50,007 nucleotides of DNA from Nitrospirota bacterium (lineage in GTDB: Bacteria > Nitrospirota > Thermodesulfovibrionia > Thermodesulfovibrionales > JdFR-88), in NCBI GenBank assembly GCA_021789555.1, contig JAJYJK010000015.1, forward strand, positions 1 through 50,007, read 5' to 3'. How positions within the stretch are numbered: the first letter of the stretch is position 1; each line of letters opens with the position of its first letter. Shown piece by piece: positions 14,011-22,940 of this stretch. Below the pieces are notes generated by a model. It was given only the letters and a program-made list of their open reading frames with translations. It did not search any database and was not told where the DNA came from. Both the position numbers and the translations under genes were made by a program.

Positions 14011-14859
14011 CTGAAAAGGCGGGAGAGGATAAGGAGGCTTGAGAGTCTTGTCGCGCTCTCCCTGAGCGCGCTGGCCGCGCTGGTTGGCATCTTCTGGCTG
14101 GTGTTCATACTAAGCGACGTCTTTCTTGAAGGCGCAAAGGCCCTCGGGCCGGCTCTCTTTCTTAAAGACCCCAGGCCGGCGGGGGTCGCGGGCGGGGGGC
14201 TCAGAAACGCCTTCGTAGGGCAGCTCCTGATCACCATTTTTGCCACGGCCATAGGCGTGCCCGTCGGCATCCTTGGCGGCACTTTTCTGGCGGAATACGC
14301 CCGCGGCAGGAAGGTCTCGCACTACATAAGCATGCTGTCGGACATCATGGTGAGCGTGCCGTCGATCGTGGTGGGGACGTTTATTTACGCGCTCATGGTG
14401 AAGCCAATGGGCCATTTCAGCGGCTGGGCGGGGTCGGTCGCCCTCGCCGTCATCATGGTGCCCGTCGTGCTGCGGACGACCGAGAACATGCTCGCCCTTG
14501 TGCCCTGGACCCTGAGGGAGGCGGCATTTGCGCTTGGCGCCCCGTATTACAAGGTGATAATACAGGTGGTCTACCGCGGGGCCATCACGGGCATCTTCAC
14601 CGGGGTGCTCCTTTCGATTGCCAGGGTGGCCGGGGAGACCGCGCCGCTTCTTTTCACCTCTTTCAATAATTCCTTCTTTTCAGCTAACATGAACCAGCCC
14701 ATTGCATCTCTCACCGTGACCATATTCCAGTACGCGATGGGGCCTTATGACGACTGGCACAGGCTGGCCTGGGCGGCCGCCCTGGTCATCACACTGGTCA
14801 TCCTGCTTGTGACGCTCGCGGGCCGGGTGGCGATACGGCTGAGATACGGCAGGAAATGA
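14011..14859 (+). CDS. pstA: Phosphate ABC transporter permease PstA, apparent CTG start
   Basis: This is the second permease subunit. The frame contains the PstA loop [22 protein letters not shown]. No ATG, GTG or TTG occurs early enough: the first is GTG 14101, which would cut the first helix in half. CTG 14011 begins [25 protein letters not shown], a positively charged n-region followed by a complete first helix, and GGGGGAGG lies at 13993-14000. I therefore take CTG as the start, giving 282 residues. It sits five bases after the pstC stop and overlaps pstB as ATGA. Confidence 0.85.
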
Positions 14860-15620
14860 AGCAGACACTGGACATGGAGGTAAAAAACCTGAGTTTCCGC
14901 TACTCGGGCGACCACCCCGTCCTGAACAACATAAACTTGGAGATATACAAAAACACGGTGACCGCCCTCATCGGGCCCTCCGGCTGCGGCAAGACGACAC
15001 TGCTTCGGTGTTTCAACCGGATGCACGACCTCTATCCGGGCAACAGGTACGAGGGCGAGATCATCTTCCAGGGCATGAACATCCTCTCAAAAGACATTGA
15101 CGTTATAGACCTCAGGAGCCGCATAGGCATGGTGTTTCAGAAGCCGACCCCCTTCCCCATGTCCATATTCGACAACATAGCCTACGGCCCGAGGCTGAGG
15201 GGGATAAGGAGGAAATCGCTCCTCTCGGAGAGCGTGGAACGCGCGCTAAAACAGTCTGCCCTTTGGGACGAGGTCAAAGACAAGCTCCATGAGAGCGCCT
15301 ACGCCCTTTCAGGCGGGCAGCAGCAGAGGCTGGTCATCGCCAGGGCGCTCGCCGTCGAGCCCGAGGCGCTGCTTTTCGACGAGCCCACTTCGGCCCTGGA
15401 CCCCATATCGACCGCCAAGATAGAGGAACTTATTGAGGAACTCAAGGAAAATGTTACAATCATAATTGTCACGCACAATCTTCAGCAGGCGGCGCGCATA
15501 TCGGAGTGGACGGGTTTTCTGATGCTGGGCGAGCTGGTGGAGTTCGACAGGACGGAGAAGATTTTCACCGTCCCGAGGGAAAAGCTTACCGAGGATTACG
15601 TGACAGGGAGATTTGGATAA
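14856..15620 (+). CDS. pstB: Phosphate ABC transporter ATPase PstB
   Basis: The 254-residue ABC ATPase has Walker [11 protein letters not shown]-loop [20 protein letters not shown] (typical of PstB), signature [19 protein letters not shown], Walker [13 protein letters not shown] and the H-loop VTHNL. The arrangement [13 protein letters not shown] is also PstB-specific. It overlaps pstA by four bases. A 20-bp direct duplication covers its last codons and stop. Confidence 0.97.
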
Positions 15621-15648
15621 AAGCGGGTAGATTTGGGTAAAGGCGGGC
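15609..15648 (+). repeat. 20-bp tandem duplication at the pstB stop
   Basis: AGATTTGGATAAAAGCGGGT (15609-15628) is followed by AGATTTGGGTAAAGGCGGGC (15629-15648). They differ at three positions. The first unit contains the pstB stop codon. Confidence 0.75.
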
Positions 15649-15694
15649 GTTTGGATCAGGGGAATGAAAAAACAGTGAAAGGGGATATCTTGGC

Positions 15695-16375
15695 GTGCCT
15701 GTAAGGGAAGAGGACTACAGGAGGCTCAGGGAAGACCTGCTGGGGATGGCGGGCCTGGTGCAGACGGCGATAAGGGAATCCGTCAGGAGCCTCGTGGAGC
15801 GTGATACGGAGGCGGCAAAGGCCGTCATCGACGGCGACAGGCGCATAAATTCCTACGACGTGAAGATCGATGAGGAATGCATAGAGCTCATCGCCTTAAG
15901 ACAGCCCATGGGAAGGGACCTGCGCTTCCTTACCACCGCCATGAAGATCACAACCGACCTGGAGCGCATAGCCGATAACGCCGTGAATATCGCGGAAAGG
16001 GCGCTCGAACTGGACGAAGAGCCCATCCTGAAACCCTACATCGACATCCCGCGCATGGCCGAGATATCCGGGGAGATGGTCAAGGACGCCATAGACGCCT
16101 TCCTTAACGAGGACACCGAGCTTGCCGTCCGCGTCATCAAACAGGACGACGAAATGGACGACCTCAACGAGTCGGTCCTCCTGGAGCTGACCTTCGTCAT
16201 GACACAGGACCCGGGAACCGTCTCACGCGCAATGAAAGTCAGCTATATCTCAAAATACCTTGAGCGCATAGGCGACCATGCAACCAACATCGCCGAAATG
16301 GTCGTTTATATGGTCAAGGGAAGGATCATCAGACACATGCTCCCGAAGGAATTCGAGAGGCTGGAAGAAAAATAG
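15695..16375 (+). CDS. phoU: Phosphate transport regulator PhoU
   Basis: The 226-residue all-helical protein has two PhoU repeats, with the metal-site motifs TTAMKITTDLERIADNAVNIAE in repeat one and SYISKYLERIGDHATNIAEM in repeat two. PhoU couples Pst transport state to PhoR inhibition. It starts at GTG 15695 with AAAGGGG upstream and is last in the pst operon. A 74-base spacer containing the pstB duplication separates it from pstB. Confidence 0.96.
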   Translation: MPVREEDYRRLREDLLGMAGLVQTAIRESVRSLVERDTEAAKAVIDGDRRINSYDVKIDEECIELIALRQPMGRDLRFLTTAMKITTDLERIADNAVNIAERALELDEEPILKPYIDIPRMAEISGEMVKDAIDAFLNEDTELAVRVIKQDDEMDDLNESVLLELTFVMTQDPGTVSRAMKVSYISKYLERIGDHATNIAEMVVYMVKGRIIRHMLPKEFERLEEK

Positions 16376-16420: not shown

Positions 16421-17167
16421 TCAGAGGTCAATCCCCGCTTCCACAAACGGCCCCGCAAGGCGGGCATCCACGTTTATGTCATGCCTGTCTATCTTCATCC
16501 AGTCGTATCTGTAGCCTGCGGCAATGAAGAAGGGTTTTACCGGGAGTATCTTTATCCTGCCTATTAAATCCAGATAGTGCTCGGAGCCGAACACCATCCC
16601 CCTTGCCTCGCCCTCGATGCCGACCAGGGAAGAGGCCCGGAGGCGCGCCCCGATGTAAATGAGCGGCACGACGATAGTCGAACTCTTTATGAAAAAAGTC
16701 CCGTTTTGCGTTATCGAGGTTTTGAGATCGATTACCCTCGCGTTGACCCCGGCGTCCACATTGAATATGCCCCTTGCGGGCCGCGGGACGAGCGAATAAT
16801 AAGGGGCGATGTCGTAATGGTTCAGTTGTGTGTCGGCCGTGAAGGGCGCGTCGGCGGCAAAGGGGATGCCGAACACGAAGGGGTGGGGCAGCGTATTTTC
16901 AGCCTTGAATTTGACGAATGTGGCCATAAAATACATGTTTGGCAGCAGGGCCGGCAGATGGACCTTCAGTCTCGCCGTGAACCTGTCTTGTTTCGTGTAG
17001 TTGAGGTCCCTTCTGAGGTCCAGTGTGTCTCCAGAACAGGAGAGGTCCCCGGAAGGCTCCTGCCTCCAGAGCCCGGCGGCCGCCTCGATATCGGAGGCAT
17101 GGGAAGTTGCCGGCATAAGGAGGGCTAACGACGCCAGGAGCGCCGCGCAGAGGAAAAAGGGGCGCAA
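16421..17167 (-). CDS. Outer-membrane beta-barrel protein (TIGR04219-like), starting just after tRNA-Arg
   Basis: A signal peptide (RPFFLCAALLASLALLMPATSHA) precedes a protein with alternating amphipathic strands, the GLWRQEPSGDLS and LDLRRDLN opening I associate with TIGR04219, and a C-terminus ending in an aromatic-rich strand. It is probably a small outer-membrane barrel of unknown role, 248 residues long. The frame stays open through both upstream tRNA genes, but that part is tRNA sequence. The only start giving a full signal peptide is TTG 17167, 11 bases after the 3' end of tRNA-Arg, with no Shine-Dalgarno. The mRNA is therefore probably released from a tRNA-mRNA cotranscript. Confidence 0.7.
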   Translation of the reverse strand: MRPFFLCAALLASLALLMPATSHASDIEAAAGLWRQEPSGDLSCSGDTLDLRRDLNYTKQDRFTARLKVHLPALLPNMYFMATFVKFKAENTLPHPFVFGIPFAADAPFTADTQLNHYDIAPYYSLVPRPARGIFNVDAGVNARVIDLKTSITQNGTFFIKSSTIVVPLIYIGARLRASSLVGIEGEARGMVFGSEHYLDLIGRIKILPVKPFFIAAGYRYDWMKIDRHDINVDARLAGPFVEAGIDL

Positions 17168-17178
17168 AAAAAGATGAA

Positions 17179-17251
17179 CGCGCCTGAGAGGATTCGAACC
17201 TCCGACCCTCGGCTCCGGAGGCCGATGCTCTATCCGCTGAGCTACAGGCGC
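17179..17251 (-). tRNA. tRNA-Arg (CCG)
   Basis: The reverse complement begins GCGCCTGTAGCTCAGCGGAT, has anticodon loop CTCCGGA (CCG), T arm GGTTCGAATCC and acceptor CAGGCGC with discriminator G. CCA is not encoded. It lies between tRNA-His and the outer-membrane protein gene, all on the same strand. Confidence 0.95.
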
Positions 17252-17262
17252 GTCAAGGACAC

Positions 17263-17339
17263 TGGGGTGGGCGATGGGGATTGAACCCACAACCACTGGA
17301 GCCACAGTCCAGTGCTCTGCCAATTGAGCTACGCCCACC
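17263..17339 (-). tRNA. tRNA-His (GUG)
   Basis: The reverse complement starts with the extra G-1 (GGTGGGCGTAGCTCAATTGG), has anticodon loop CTGTGGC (GUG) and T arm GGTTCAATCCC. The acceptor ends CGCCCAC with C73, which pairs with G-1, and an encoded CCA at 17265-17263. These are the identity features of bacterial tRNA-His. Confidence 0.95.
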
Positions 17340-17453
17340 ACCCCCCGTTTGGAAGACTTATTTTAAAACGGTGAAGCCGCCGATTAAAAAACCCCAGAAG
17401 GGATTTACACCCCTGAGCCGCTGAGGCCGATTGGCGCACTGATTTATTTTACT

Positions 17454-17482: not shown

Positions 17483-17992
17483 ATGCCGGCCGGGGCGATT
17501 GAAGGCCCCCGAGGGCGAGTTTTTATCCGCGGGAATGCGCTGGCTATCCATTTAAAGTATTTTTCTTTCGGGGATGACGCGAACAGACCCTGAATCCTGC
17601 CAGGCAACTCACAGGATGCTTGACAGCGCGGGTATTACTTTTAATAAGCGCTCACGTCTAAACCCGTTTGTTTCCAGACATGCTTTCATGAAGCGGCGTC
17701 CGCCGCCTTCATGCCTATCAGAACCCCCGTCCCGGACTTTGTCCAGTAGCCAATTTATCTTCCCCATGGCGGGTCTTTTGTCCACTGGAAATAAGCCTGC
17801 CATGCATTCAAGCGCCTTCTGCCAATCGGGGCGGGATATCCCGACAGTTGTGATTCTGGATACATCTTTTGAGGGACATATTCGGTTAAAGTGAACCGTC
17901 AAGGGCATGGCGTTCGCGATTTGAAACCGGGAATTTCCTTAGAATAGCGGACTTGCGTAACCAGTTTCAGCATTTAGCCGGAGGTGTGTCCA
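17483..17992. other. Intergenic stretch without a recognised gene
   Basis: About 500 bases lie between the leftward tRNA promoter and the secreted beta-helix gene. Short frames exist on both strands (17574-17894 plus, 17609-17908 minus), but neither has a recognisable domain or Shine-Dalgarno, and they overlap each other. No clear -35/-10 pair for the downstream gene was found. Confidence 0.5.
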
Positions 17993-20092
17993 GTGCAGTC
18001 GTCAAGAATCAAAACCACCAAAAAAACCAAATTAGGAAGTCACTTGCCTGCCCATGCGGGATACAAGCTGACTCTATTATTAACCCTTACGGTCCTGTCG
18101 CTGCTTATCGCGGCGGGGGGCGCGTTCGCGGCCCCATACTATGTATCGCCCGGCGGGTCGGACTCCGCCGCCGGGACAAGCTCGTCGCCCTGGGGGACAT
18201 TCTCGCACGCAATGGCGGTCATCAAAGCGGGCGACACCCTGTACCTCGAAGACGGCACATATAGCCAGCAACTCAATATCGGTGTATCTGGCACGAGCAG
18301 CGCATATGTGACGGTGAAGGCGCTTAATGACGGCGGCGCCACCGTGAGCACCACCTATCCCACGAGTCCGCTTTTGATAGGCAACCGGTCATATATCGAG
18401 GTGGACGGCATAAATTTCAGCAACAGCGGCGTATATGACAGCAACACATATTGCGCCACTGATGGTGTCGGCTACAACAACGTAAACGGCATAAATATCT
18501 ACGGGGCGGACCACATAATACTCCGAAGGGACATAGCCAGCGGCTCATCGGGCTGCAACTCCGCGGTGATCGGTCTTGCGGGGGTGAGCAACAGCCTGCT
18601 TGAGGACTGCGCCGGGGCGGGGCAGGGCAGGGTGGTGCTCAATATGAACAGTTGCAGCAACGTCACCATAAGGCGCTGCTGGCTGGACTGGACCGGCCCG
18701 AGCACGGGCGGCGGCGACGTCGCCAACATAACCCAGGTCTACGACTCCTCCAATATACTGATGGAAAACAACATCGGGGTGAACTACACGGGGGAGAGCA
18801 TCGAATTCTTTAACACATGGGCGCATTACGGCTCGATAAGCGGCAACGGCTTTTACGGCAACGTCGCAATCAACAAGACAAGCACGGCGGCGGGCGGGAT
18901 GTTCATGGACTCGGCCGAATGCGGCGAGTCGGTAAGCGGCACCGTGTTTTCAAACAACGTGGCGATAGTGCTTGGCGGCGGCCAGGCCGCGATGGAAATG
19001 AATGCCGCTCCGAATGACGGCACCGTGTTTTCAAACAATACATTTGTCTCCCCGAACAACTCCGGGGGCGGCCTGTTGCTGTCTTACAGGTCGTCCTGTC
19101 CCGGACAGAGCGCCGCGGTGGCCGACGTCTCGAGCAATTCATTTCTGGGCACCTGGAGCGGGATTTCAGGCGACAGCGGCGTCTCCAATTACGTGAAGGC
19201 GCACGACTACAACAACTATTATGATATGTACGGGGGCTCGCCGCTGTATGCCACCCAGTACATAAACCCCCCGAACATGACGGCCAACGAGGCCCAGATG
19301 AACCCGGGTTATCCCACCTCGACCTACGGTTACGGGGCCTATCTGATGGCCCCGTCGGCCCTGAAAGGCAAAGGGGCCAGCGGCTCCGACATCGGGGCCG
19401 ATGTCATATACGAATACGTAAACGGCAGTCTGACCGCAACGCCGCTCTGGCCGTGGCCCATGGAGGGCCGGATAGTCGCCGAATTCGGCGTCAGCCCCAC
19501 CTATGCCGATGATGGCAATGGACACACCGGCGGTATCTGGACGACATTGAATGGGATACCCACCCGTACAGGGGATTCTTCTTCCGGCTCCTCGATGCTG
19601 GCCCCGCCCGTGCCCGTATCGCCGACAAACGGCGCAACTACCGGCACGACGGTGACATTCGAGTGGAAGGCCCCCAATAACAACGGCCTTCACTATATGC
19701 TGCAGCTAAGCAAAAACGGACAGTTTACGGACAGCACAAACATAACGGTGGCATCGGCCTCGACCTCGGCCAAAAACAACACTTACGCGGGCCTGGCCAG
19801 CATTTTCCTCTTCGGGATAGTCTTTTCAAGCGGGTTTGGCGGAAGGAAAAAGCTCCTCCTGCTTCTGGCGGCTATCGCCTTGTCCGCGATGTTCCTTGCA
19901 TCCTGCGGCGGGGGAGGGGGCGGTTCCTCATCGCCGGCCGGTTCGGCCGGAGCATCGACCGGCGCGGCCGGTGTGGCCTCTTACACCGTCTCGGGCCTTA
20001 CCGACAACACAACGTACTACTGGAAGGTAATCGCGGCCGACAATACCGGTCAGCAGGCCGCAAGCCCGGCAAGCAGTTTTGTTACCAATTAA
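17993..20092 (+). CDS. Secreted right-handed beta-helix protein with an Fn3 domain split by a membrane/lipobox cassette
   Basis: GTG 17993 is preceded by GGAGGTG. An n-region of about 26 residues leads to a signal peptide ending AAGGAFA|AP. Residues about 50-500 form a parallel beta-helix: APYYVSPGGSDSAAGTSSSPW, AGDTLYLEDGTY and many N-rich turns, ending GADVIYEYVNG and LWPWPMEGRI. An Fn3 domain starts near 533 (PVSPTNGATTGTTVTFEWKA, LHYMLQLSKNGQF) and finishes at the C-terminus (YTVSGLTDNTTYYWKVIAAD, ASSFVTN). Between these halves, residues 600-660 hold a hydrophobic stretch (IFLFGIVFSSGF, 604-615), GGRKK (616-620), a second hydrophobic helix, lipobox LASC with C638, six glycines and a Ser/Ala/Gly linker. 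The insert itself looks like a lipoprotein signal peptide. Beta-helix proteins of this type usually bind or cut polysaccharide; catalytic residues are not evident. Confidence 0.8.
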   Translation: MQSSRIKTTKKTKLGSHLPAHAGYKLTLLLTLTVLSLLIAAGGAFAAPYYVSPGGSDSAAGTSSSPWGTFSHAMAVIKAGDTLYLEDGTYSQQLNIGVSGTSSAYVTVKALNDGGATVSTTYPTSPLLIGNRSYIEVDGINFSNSGVYDSNTYCATDGVGYNNVNGINIYGADHIILRRDIASGSSGCNSAVIGLAGVSNSLLEDCAGAGQGRVVLNMNSCSNVTIRRCWLDWTGPSTGGGDVANITQVYDSSNILMENNIGVNYTGESIEFFNTWAHYGSISGNGFYGNVAINKTSTAAGGMFMDSAECGESVSGTVFSNNVAIVLGGGQAAMEMNAAPNDGTVFSNNTFVSPNNSGGGLLLSYRSSCPGQSAAVADVSSNSFLGTWSGISGDSGVSNYVKAHDYNNYYDMYGGSPLYATQYINPPNMTANEAQMNPGYPTSTYGYGAYLMAPSALKGKGASGSDIGADVIYEYVNGSLTATPLWPWPMEGRIVAEFGVSPTYADDGNGHTGGIWTTLNGIPTRTGDSSSGSSMLAPPVPVSPTNGATTGTTVTFEWKAPNNNGLHYMLQLSKNGQFTDSTNITVASASTSAKNNTYAGLASIFLFGIVFSSGFGGRKKLLLLLAAIALSAMFLASCGGGGGGSSSPAGSAGASTGAAGVASYTVSGLTDNTTYYWKVIAADNTGQQAASPASSFVTN

Positions 20093-20241: not shown

Positions 20242-20925
20242 GTGGATTATCTCCAGCTAAGAAAGATAGATTTATTTTCCTCCCTTTCCGACGAGGATAT
20301 CTCGCAGATCAGCGGCAGTTTTTCGCTGAAGAAATTCAGGAAAAACGAGGTGATCCTGCAGGAGCAGGACACCAATGAGTTCATGTACATGATACTCTCC
20401 GGCAAGGTCAAGGTCGTGCAGATAACCGAGGACGGCAAGGAGACGATAATCGCCTTCCATAAATCGGGCGATTTTTTCGGGGAGATGTCCCTCATAGACG
20501 GCAAGACCGCTCCGGCCACGGTGGCCGCCATCGAGAACTCAAATGTCGCCATCATCTCCAAAAAGGATTTTTACTCTCTCCTCTTCGTCCAGAATAAATT
20601 TATCGTCCAGCTCCTGAGGATTCTGTGCTCCCGGCTCCGGGAGGCATATGAGAGGATACAGATACTCAGTTTCAACAACGCCGCCCAGAGGATAAAGATG
20701 CTCTTCATCATGCTGGCCAACATGTACGGCAAGGAAGAGGAAAAGGGGATAAGGCTCGATATCAAGCTGACCCATCAGAACATGGCCGATATGACCGGCA
20801 TTGCGCGTGAGACCGTGACAAGATTGATCAACAGGGCGCAAAAGGACAACGATATCTTCTTTGAAGGGAAGGTCATCTACCTGAACCCGGAATATATCAG
20901 GAAGGATTTCGAGATTAAACGCTAG
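20242..20925 (+). CDS. CRP/FNR-family transcription regulator
   Basis: The 227-residue protein has an N-terminal cyclic-nucleotide-binding beta-roll (about 10-120, with GDFFGEMSLIDGKTAPATVAA), a long dimer helix (about 125-150) and a C-terminal winged helix. The roll motif resembles the CRP phosphate-binding cassette, but the exact cAMP contacts are not all certain. There is no FNR-type N-terminal cysteine cluster. The recognition helix GIARETVTRLINR has the same R-E-x-x-x-R spacing as E. coli CRP RETVGR, so it should prefer TGTGA-N6-TCACA sites. One such site lies in this window at 28793-28808. The start is GTG 20242. Confidence 0.88.
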   Translation: MDYLQLRKIDLFSSLSDEDISQISGSFSLKKFRKNEVILQEQDTNEFMYMILSGKVKVVQITEDGKETIIAFHKSGDFFGEMSLIDGKTAPATVAAIENSNVAIISKKDFYSLLFVQNKFIVQLLRILCSRLREAYERIQILSFNNAAQRIKMLFIMLANMYGKEEEKGIRLDIKLTHQNMADMTGIARETVTRLINRAQKDNDIFFEGKVIYLNPEYIRKDFEIKR

Positions 20926-21726: not shown

Positions 21727-21915
21727 ATGGCTAATCCAACGCACAGGCACACGAGGAGCCGGAGGGACAAACGCAGGGCCAACTGGAAAGGCGAGGCCCC
21801 GACCCTGGTGGCCTGCCCGGAATGCAGCGAGCCCAGGATGCCCCACAGGGTCTGCCCGAGCTGCGGCACTTACAACAAGCGGAAGGTCCTCGATATAGTC
21901 GAAAAAGAGGGATGA
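21727..21915 (+). CDS. rpmF: 50S ribosomal protein L32
   Basis: This 62-residue zinc-ribbon ribosomal protein reads ANPTHRHTRSRRDKRRANW, then CPECSEPRMPHRVCPSCG with the two CxxC zinc pairs intact, then GTYNKRKV. It starts at ATG 21727 after AAAGGAG. Its stop overlaps plsX as ATGA, linking ribosome supply to phospholipid synthesis genes as in many bacteria. Confidence 0.98.
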   Translation: MANPTHRHTRSRRDKRRANWKGEAPTLVACPECSEPRMPHRVCPSCGTYNKRKVLDIVEKEG

Positions 21916-22940
21916 TAATCGCTTTGGACGCAATGGGCGGGGACCACGCGCCCTCGGCGATAGTCGAGGGCGCGGTCGAGGCCCTGAATGAATACGGGGA
22001 CATGGAAATCGTGCTCGTAGGGGATGAGCGCGCGGTGGCCGATGAGCTTCGGGACAAGAGCTTCCCTCCCCTCAGGGTGAGGATAGTGCACGCCCCCGAG
22101 GCGATCGCAATGGGGGAGCCCCCGCTGTCGGCGATAAGGAAAAAGAAAAATTCCTCCATCCGGCGGGCGGTGGACCTCGTCAAGGCGGGAGAGGCCGATG
22201 CCGTTGTTAGCGCCGGCCACTCCGGCGCCATGATGGCGCTTGCCCTCATAGTGCTCGGGGCCTCTGCCGGCGTGGAGCGGCCCGCGATAGCCACCATAAT
22301 GCCCACGTTCAAAAAACCTTTTATCCTCATAGACGCCGGGGCCAATGTCGACTGCAGCCCCTTAAACCTCCTCCAGTTCGCCCTCATGGGCAACGCCTAC
22401 GCTAAACATATACTGGGCAGGCCGGCCCCAAAGGTGGCCATCCTCTCCATCGGGGAGGAGGAGGGCAAGGGAAACGAGCTTACGAAGGAATCCTTCAAGC
22501 TCCTGCAGGCCGCCGACTTGAACTTCATCGGAAACGTCGAGGGCAAGGACATCTTTGCGGGGGAGGCCGACGTCGTGGTCTGCGACGGCTTTATCGGCAA
22601 TATAGTGCTGAAAACCAGCGAGGGGCTGGCCGAGGCGGTCATAAAGATGCTCAAACAGGAGATCGCCAGCCTTCCGACGGGGCGGCTTGGCTATCTCTTC
22701 ATAAAAAGCGCGCTGAAGGGTTTCAAGAAGAAGACCGACTACGCGGAGCAAGGCGGCTCGCCGCTTCTTGGGATAAACGGCACCTGCATCATCGGCCACG
22801 GCCGCTCCACCGCCAAGGCCATAAAAAACGCCATAAAAGTGGCGGACGAGTTTTCCAGGAAAAAGACGCACGAGATAATCCGGCAGGAGATAAACAGAAA
22901 CACCCTGCCCGTGAAAGGCAACACCCTTGCCGCTGGCTAG
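21912..22940 (+). CDS. plsX: Phosphate acyltransferase PlsX
   Basis: The 342-residue peripheral membrane enzyme makes acyl-phosphate from acyl-ACP for glycerolipid synthesis. Typical motifs are IIALDAMGGDHAP at the start, SAGHSGAMMALALIVLG, DAGANVDCSP and VCDGFIGNIVLKTSEG. The start is ATG 21912, overlapping the rpmF stop. An open frame extends further upstream through rpmF but is not conserved. It ends 14 bases inside fabH. Confidence 0.97.
   Translation: MIIALDAMGGDHAPSAIVEGAVEALNEYGDMEIVLVGDERAVADELRDKSFPPLRVRIVHAPEAIAMGEPPLSAIRKKKNSSIRRAVDLVKAGEADAVVSAGHSGAMMALALIVLGASAGVERPAIATIMPTFKKPFILIDAGANVDCSPLNLLQFALMGNAYAKHILGRPAPKVAILSIGEEEGKGNELTKESFKLLQAADLNFIGNVEGKDIFAGEADVVVCDGFIGNIVLKTSEGLAEAVIKMLKQEIASLPTGRLGYLFIKSALKGFKKKTDYAEQGGSPLLGINGTCIIGHGRSTAKAIKNAIKVADEFSRKKTHEIIRQEINRNTLPVKGNTLAAG

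Follow-up and report, generated by a model that had tools for sequence, protein, structure and literature searches.

Why would an exported protein, which already has an ordinary signal peptide at its N-terminus, carry what reads as a second, complete lipoprotein signal inside its last folded domain? Is that signal used, and if so, what becomes of the domain that it interrupts? These questions are raised by a forward-strand gene (17993..20092) in the window, i.e. the whole 50,007-nucleotide stretch of DNA analysed here, which comes from a Nitrospirota-type MAG of 2.85 Mb. The open reading frame encodes an exported protein of ~699 residues, with an alternative GTG start at 17984; residue numbers, including that of the cysteine at the centre of this report, Cys638, are counted from GTG 17993. 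As the preliminary description of this DNA had recognized, the protein opens with a normal-looking type-I-like signal peptide (17993..18130, forward strand), which has no lipobox and ends ...LLIAAGGAFA/APYY, and a hydrophobic N-terminal signal is present in 28 of 31 complete relatives (one locus counted twice). The N-terminal region of the passenger gives weak matches to right-handed beta-helix/pectate-lyase models (NF041899 PelN, partial, 4.6e-12; PF22842, 9.6e-7).

The C-terminal module, all on the forward strand, is assembled in a strict order. First comes the front half of an Fn3 domain (strands A, B, C and C'; 19610..19750), followed by a hydrophobic segment, TM1, with the sequence GLASIFLFGIVFSSGF (19790..19837), the basic loop GGRKK (19838..19852), and a second hydrophobic segment, TM2, LLLLLAAIALSAMFLAS (19853..19903), which doubles as the internal lipoprotein signal. 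Then follow the lipobox cysteine C638 of the motif LASC (19904..19906), which is the predicted diacylglyceryl site with the signal peptidase II cut expected just before it, a Gly/Ser linker of variable length that begins GGGGGG (19907..19963), and the back half of the Fn3 domain (strands E, F and G; 19964..20089), after which the protein ends. The Fn3 halves, the hydrophobic stretches, GGRKK, LASC and GGGGGG all lie where the preliminary description had placed them in proposing a lipoprotein-type cassette. It had also mentioned a hydrophobic stretch ahead of the signal; that stretch is there, but as the constant first half of a membrane hairpin rather than as an optional extra. Thus GGRKK-LLLLLAAIALSAMFLASC offers the basic residues, uncharged h-region and lipobox consensus of a bacterial lipoprotein, with the difference that the signal does not stand at the N-terminus of the precursor: the cysteine is residue 638 of ~699.

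Do the two flanking pieces really belong to one domain? Several lines of evidence say that residues 533-699 form a single Fn3 domain with the insert between strands C' and E. The Pfam fn3 model matches the native sequence in two separate stretches (27.7 bits), and deleting the insert in silico turns these into one continuous match over positions 10-82 of 84 (36.5 bits). AlphaFold2, given an alignment of 33 natural modules with the insert retained, joins both halves in a single Fn3 sandwich, with the cassette lying outside it and TM2 as a helix; pLDDT is 89-98 over module residues 1-50 (the front strands fall within residues 7-53) and 95-98 over residues 131-166, and mostly below 70 in between. 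Additionally, model residues 1-166 align onto the single Fn3 domain of 7y6e (Z 11.5, 2.2 A, 91 residues) and onto that of 9kvu (Z 11.4, 1.9 A, 87 residues), and the window module therefore has both the seven-strand sandwich and the profile match that define an Fn3 domain. The Ig-type modules described below behave like the Fn3 type in the structure analysis. Together, the Pfam, AlphaFold2 and structure-alignment results indicate that the cassette sits in the C'-E loop and that the fold needs both halves, so the proposal of an Fn3 domain split by a cassette holds up, with Fn3 predicted on both sides and no free-standing hairpin. Since AlphaFold2 modelled a covalent chain, the model is silent on whether the halves would bind each other once cut.

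A split domain in one protein could be an accident, e.g. an assembly error or the chance fusion of an exported protein to a lipoprotein gene that lies downstream of it. Lipoprotein signals are common, after all, and weak matches to the relevant family model do fall on unrelated proteins. That model is NCBIfam NF058595 (invert_tail), a 'lipo-invert putative C-terminal anchoring domain' in the 2026 release; in other words, the kind is already catalogued, and the Fn3-type module of the window is a variant below the current cut-off, scoring 25.6 bits for the full protein and 25.0 for the module against a cut-off of 37 bits. The model aligns over the cassette and shares with it TM1, the basic loop, TM2, the lipobox cysteine, the Gly/Ser linker and the final beta strands at the C-terminus, and at E<=0.01 it recognizes 31 of 34 Fn3-type modules; the difference is that the above-cut-off matches inspected (L084-L088, L117-L146) are Ig-like, whereas the window module is Fn3. 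A literature search returned no paper that contains the NF058595 name or describes the tail.

The recurrence of the module rules out an accident of fusion or assembly, which we regard as extremely improbable: 115 distinct modules, mostly from Nitrospirota and Acidobacteriota, were inspected, and in each the cassette interrupts the final beta-sandwich, whose two halves are both there. The insert is thus not confined to the window protein, an outcome that would have counted against the preliminary description's model. That description had also asked whether the host is always Fn3, and it is not: the interrupted domain is Fn3 in 39 modules, Ig-like in 75 and ASH-like in 1 (the last in a Nitrospirota relative, L045, where the host domain reads as an Ig domain of the ASH type). 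All 40 of the 40 additional Acidobacteriota matches that were fetched share the module plan with an Ig-like domain, as do the first loci. Their plan runs TVTPxxGFxGxVxLSCSGLPxGxxCxFxP...TLTITTTA, then TM1-RRR-TM2-GC, then GGG...GTPAGTYTVTVTATSG...TVTLTV.

How far does the module spread? The window genome has three copies, and the module is present in 11 of 12 sampled genomes of its own family, the window genome included. The Fn3 type, by its own profile at E<=1e-10, appears in 23 of 242 sampled Nitrospirota genomes from eleven families, and NF058595 above cut-off picks out 6 of 246 Nitrospirota genomes and 35 of 297 Acidobacteriota genomes, the latter with the Ig type and many with ten or more matches each; about twenty sampled Acidobacteriota genomes have 10 or more detected modules. 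The Fn3 type is mostly found in Nitrospirota and the Ig type mostly in Acidobacteriota. The family search at E<=1e-7 yielded 0 of 349 Pseudomonadota genomes and 0 of 14 control/reference genomes, and neither the Fn3 nor the Ig type matched the plasmid collection. Many of the weak NF058595 matches (E about 1e-5) proved on inspection to be non-members, so genome counts at that level overstate the spread. Apart from Nitrospirae MAGs, the named relatives comprise two MAGs of Aminicenantes and one of Gammaproteobacteria, and the single locus with the module in the last of these (L051) could be a binning error.

Given a recurrent split domain, is its cysteine used, or does the hairpin suffice? The statistics of the family bear on this choice. 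The module is C-terminal in 115 of 115 cases, with 34-71 residues between the cysteine and the stop codon, and the residues between the two hydrophobic segments are net positive in every one of the 115. A run of at least two Arg/Lys separates the segments in 111 of 114 Fn3 and Ig modules. TM1 is hydrophobic at its place in all modules of the first set (n=71), and net loop charge is +2 to +6 in 70/70 modules of that set, for which the script had demanded basic residues and a small residue at -1. No charge occurs in the 12 residues before the cysteine (114/114 modules), and the cysteine itself is an invariant column of the Fn3-type alignment. Residue -1 is Ser in 35 of 39 Fn3 modules and Gly in 54 of 75 Ig modules; it is Ser, Gly or Ala in 113/114 of these combined and small in 114/115 overall, and among the later 44 modules, selected only on a hydrophobic stretch before the cysteine, there is still just one with another residue there. 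Leu is common at -3; at +2, Gly or Ser predominates and Asp never occurs.

One reading of the module dispenses with a functional split: TM1 and TM2 would form an Fn3 loop embedded in the inner membrane, the chain would stay whole (or be lipidated and left uncut), and the protein would face the periplasm. By the positive-inside rule, TM1, basic loop and TM2 make a good hairpin in every module, the AlphaFold2 model of the Ig type has a pair of antiparallel helices, and the search described below found no dedicated processing enzyme in the four families tested. A hairpin anchor needs no cysteine, yet the cysteine is invariant in the alignments and keeps its lipobox company at -3, -1 and +2; additionally, LspA is encoded in 9/9 genomes checked, that of the window included. 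We consider this passive hairpin unlikely and, because of the invariant cysteine in a proper lipobox, favour lipidation and cleavage.

Our preferred reading, which we hold with slightly better than even confidence, is that the C-terminal module is an internal, or 'inverted', lipoprotein anchor that is cut before C638 and held by beta-strand complementation. The N-terminal signal peptide would export the passenger together with Fn3 strands A-C'; TM1 would stop transfer, leaving GGRKK in the cytoplasm; and TM2 would act as a second, internal lipoprotein signal and export the tail. The positive-inside rule gives this topology: passenger out, TM1 running from periplasm to cytoplasm, loop cytoplasmic and TM2 back out. 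C638 would then receive diacylglycerol from Lgt, the chain would be cut just ahead of it by signal peptidase II (LspA), and strands E-G would become an N-terminally lipidated stub of ~60 residues that stays folded with A-C'. The passenger would be tied to a membrane lipid by beta-strand complementation and not by a peptide bond. What we infer in this scheme is that C638 is lipidated and the chain cut, that the two parts then stay together, and in which membrane they end up.

What does the conservation of the module say about such a clasp? In the Fn3 type, the half domains are conserved, with mean pair identity of 0.37 for the front and 0.44 for the back, which is the best-conserved segment and near-fixed in length (40-46 residues), and the linkers vary in length (8-24 residues, and 3-23 for the Gly/Ser linker). 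A stub severed from its passenger would have little reason to keep an exact E-G unless it paired with A-C', and for this reason we favour strand complementation. Models of the N-half and the C-half, built separately and trained on half of the first set, assign the same fold class to both halves of 71 held-out modules out of 79. Two calls are nominally mixed, but their N-half scores fall below 0, and no mixed pair is well supported. Part of this concordance reflects common descent, as Fn3 and Ig types largely follow the division between the two phyla. The passengers of Fn3-type relatives are varied, comprising beta-helix, M6 peptidase, GDSL esterase, laminin-G-like and SBBP beta-propeller proteins. 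One Fn3-type module (L043:1474-1953) has an extra, very basic extension, SGKKRRGRR, after strand G.

The scheme put forward in the preliminary description, with a lipidated C-terminal stub and an N-terminal part attached by strand complementation, leaves TM1 out of account. Cutting at C638 would leave both TM1 and TM2 on the N-terminal part, which would not be free of the inner membrane unless TM1 were removed. TM1 may either be removed, in which case the complex could leave the inner membrane, or be kept as a second anchor; if it is removed, the protease would be either a housekeeping one or one outside the four families that we tested. The fullest version of our preferred reading, in which signal peptidase II splits a single chain within its terminal Ig/Fn3 domain, TM1 is cut off, and a non-covalent complex passes to the outer membrane with two or three lipidated strands completing the passenger domain, is offered tentatively, as a possible but doubtful account of these Acidobacteriota and Nitrospirota envelope proteins.

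A related proposal makes sorting a two-step affair: TM1 with the basic residues would itself serve as a signal of the C-terminal-sorting kind, processed by a sortase-like enzyme or an intramembrane protease; LspA would cut TM2, and the complex would be freed to reach the outer membrane or the cell surface. TM1-RRR does resemble PEP-CTERM and GlyGly-CTERM tails in their tripartite arrangement, and the absence of Asp at +2 would, under the E. coli rule, permit sorting to the outer membrane; TM1 itself differs in sequence between Fn3 and Ig types, which speaks against the proposal. Candidate partners were sought by phylogenetic profile in 61 relatives, 15 of them with strong Fn3-type matches. Exosortase (PF09721) is enriched with Fn3-type modules (full-length in 6/15 vs 4/46, p=0.01), yet it is absent from near-complete genomes with multiple modules (G003, G005) and was rejected as the partner. 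The CPBP family (PF02517) shows 10/15 vs 23/46 (p=0.37) and is absent from G007 (4 modules) and G047 (4-5 modules); rhomboid (PF01694) occurs in 54/61 relatives with no association; and rhombosortase (TIGR03902) is over its cut-off in only 1/61, the window genome (G000) having only a general rhomboid below that cut-off. These four families thus supplied no dedicated TM1 protease in the 61 relatives, and we judge two-step sorting by such an enzyme quite unlikely. The sole rhombosortase-positive relative (G057; L147, contig 266) also carries Fn3-type modules, and two anchoring systems may coexist there.

How does the inverted lipoprotein anchor that we favour compare with established ones? Classical lipoproteins (Lgt/LspA/Lnt) have the same basic n-region, hydrophobic h-region, L-x-S/G/A-C lipobox and flexible linker after the cysteine, but here the signal is internal, ~60 residues from the C-terminus, and the passenger precedes the cysteine and has its own N-terminal signal. 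In chaperone-usher pilins, an Ig-like sandwich is completed by a strand from a separate chain (donor-strand complementation). The same physical principle would apply to a split Fn3 or Ig domain, but here both parts come from one precursor by a proposed signal peptidase II cut, the complementing strands would bear the lipid, and the systems are not homologous. GlyGly-CTERM and PEP-CTERM tails resemble TM1 plus basic residues, but they end the protein, whereas here a second TM, a lipobox and half a domain follow, with the window protein running ~80 residues beyond the basic loop. LPXTG/sortase substrates differ as well, as there is no LPXTG-like motif before TM1 and no C-terminal TM tail. MYXO-CTERM is a C-terminal anchoring signal with an invariant cysteine thought to be lipidated, and MXAN_5598 has a rare internal MYXO-CTERM motif (PMC11980579). 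In the MYXO-CTERM/myxosortase system, the cysteine lies ahead of a single TM helix, the tail is discarded and the protease is of the CPBP family (PMC11980579), whereas in the window module the cysteine comes after a second TM and is followed by a conserved half Fn3 domain. The preliminary description was thus right that the anatomy is distinct from LPXTG, GlyGly-CTERM and PEP-CTERM, and the distinction extends to MYXO-CTERM.

If the favoured reading is true, the usual lipoprotein machinery would anchor proteins from the other end, with the chain cut and a split beta-sandwich as the clasp, giving a lipoprotein whose lipid is held by the fold and not by a peptide bond. The recurrence of the module in >100 related proteins from two phyla suggests, as far as sequences can tell, a widespread way of tethering proteins to membranes by cutting a domain in two. 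It would cover many proteins per genome in some Acidobacteriota and, among Fn3-type passengers, hydrolases, a protease and a beta-propeller protein, and nature would have supplied a domain that withstands being cut in one of its loops. For annotation, a model built on the Fn3 type would pick up members that fall short of the NF058595 cut-off. This is a very common design, catalogued without an experimental explanation in the literature found, and the mechanism is easily testable with standard reagents.

The context of the window locus is ordinary housekeeping: pstA, pstB and phoU for phosphate uptake lie upstream (14101-16375) and plsX downstream (21822-22940). The adjacent gene, a CRP/FNR-like regulator by profile matches (20242..20925, forward strand), is of interest for context only. 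Such a regulator adjoins beta-helix cassette genes both here and in G007 (L153:11059-11778), where two cassette genes lie next to one whose N-terminal sequence is similar to that of the window; judged from this resemblance, regulation by the neighbour is possibly conserved between the two genomes. Read from sequence, the cluster neighbourhoods in G047, G005 and G007 have glycosyltransferases, other envelope-type genes and a CRP-like regulator, and no obvious processing gene. In G047 (contig 52, L151:6555-18372), four large consecutive genes have Fn3-type C-terminal modules, one with an M6 peptidase passenger, and their neighbours are rhodanese-like in appearance and paralogous to each other. 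Two adjacent cassette genes in G005 (contig 24, L152:4761-7360), with GDSL esterase and laminin-G-like passengers, are surrounded by glycosyltransferase genes and others of polysaccharide type, a setting that hints at a function connected with exopolysaccharide. Finally, the reverse-strand ORF at 16421-17341 in the window matches TIGR04219 (OMP_w_GlyGly) with 125.5 bits; because its first part overlaps two same-strand tRNA genes at 17179-17338, its true start is probably further downstream.
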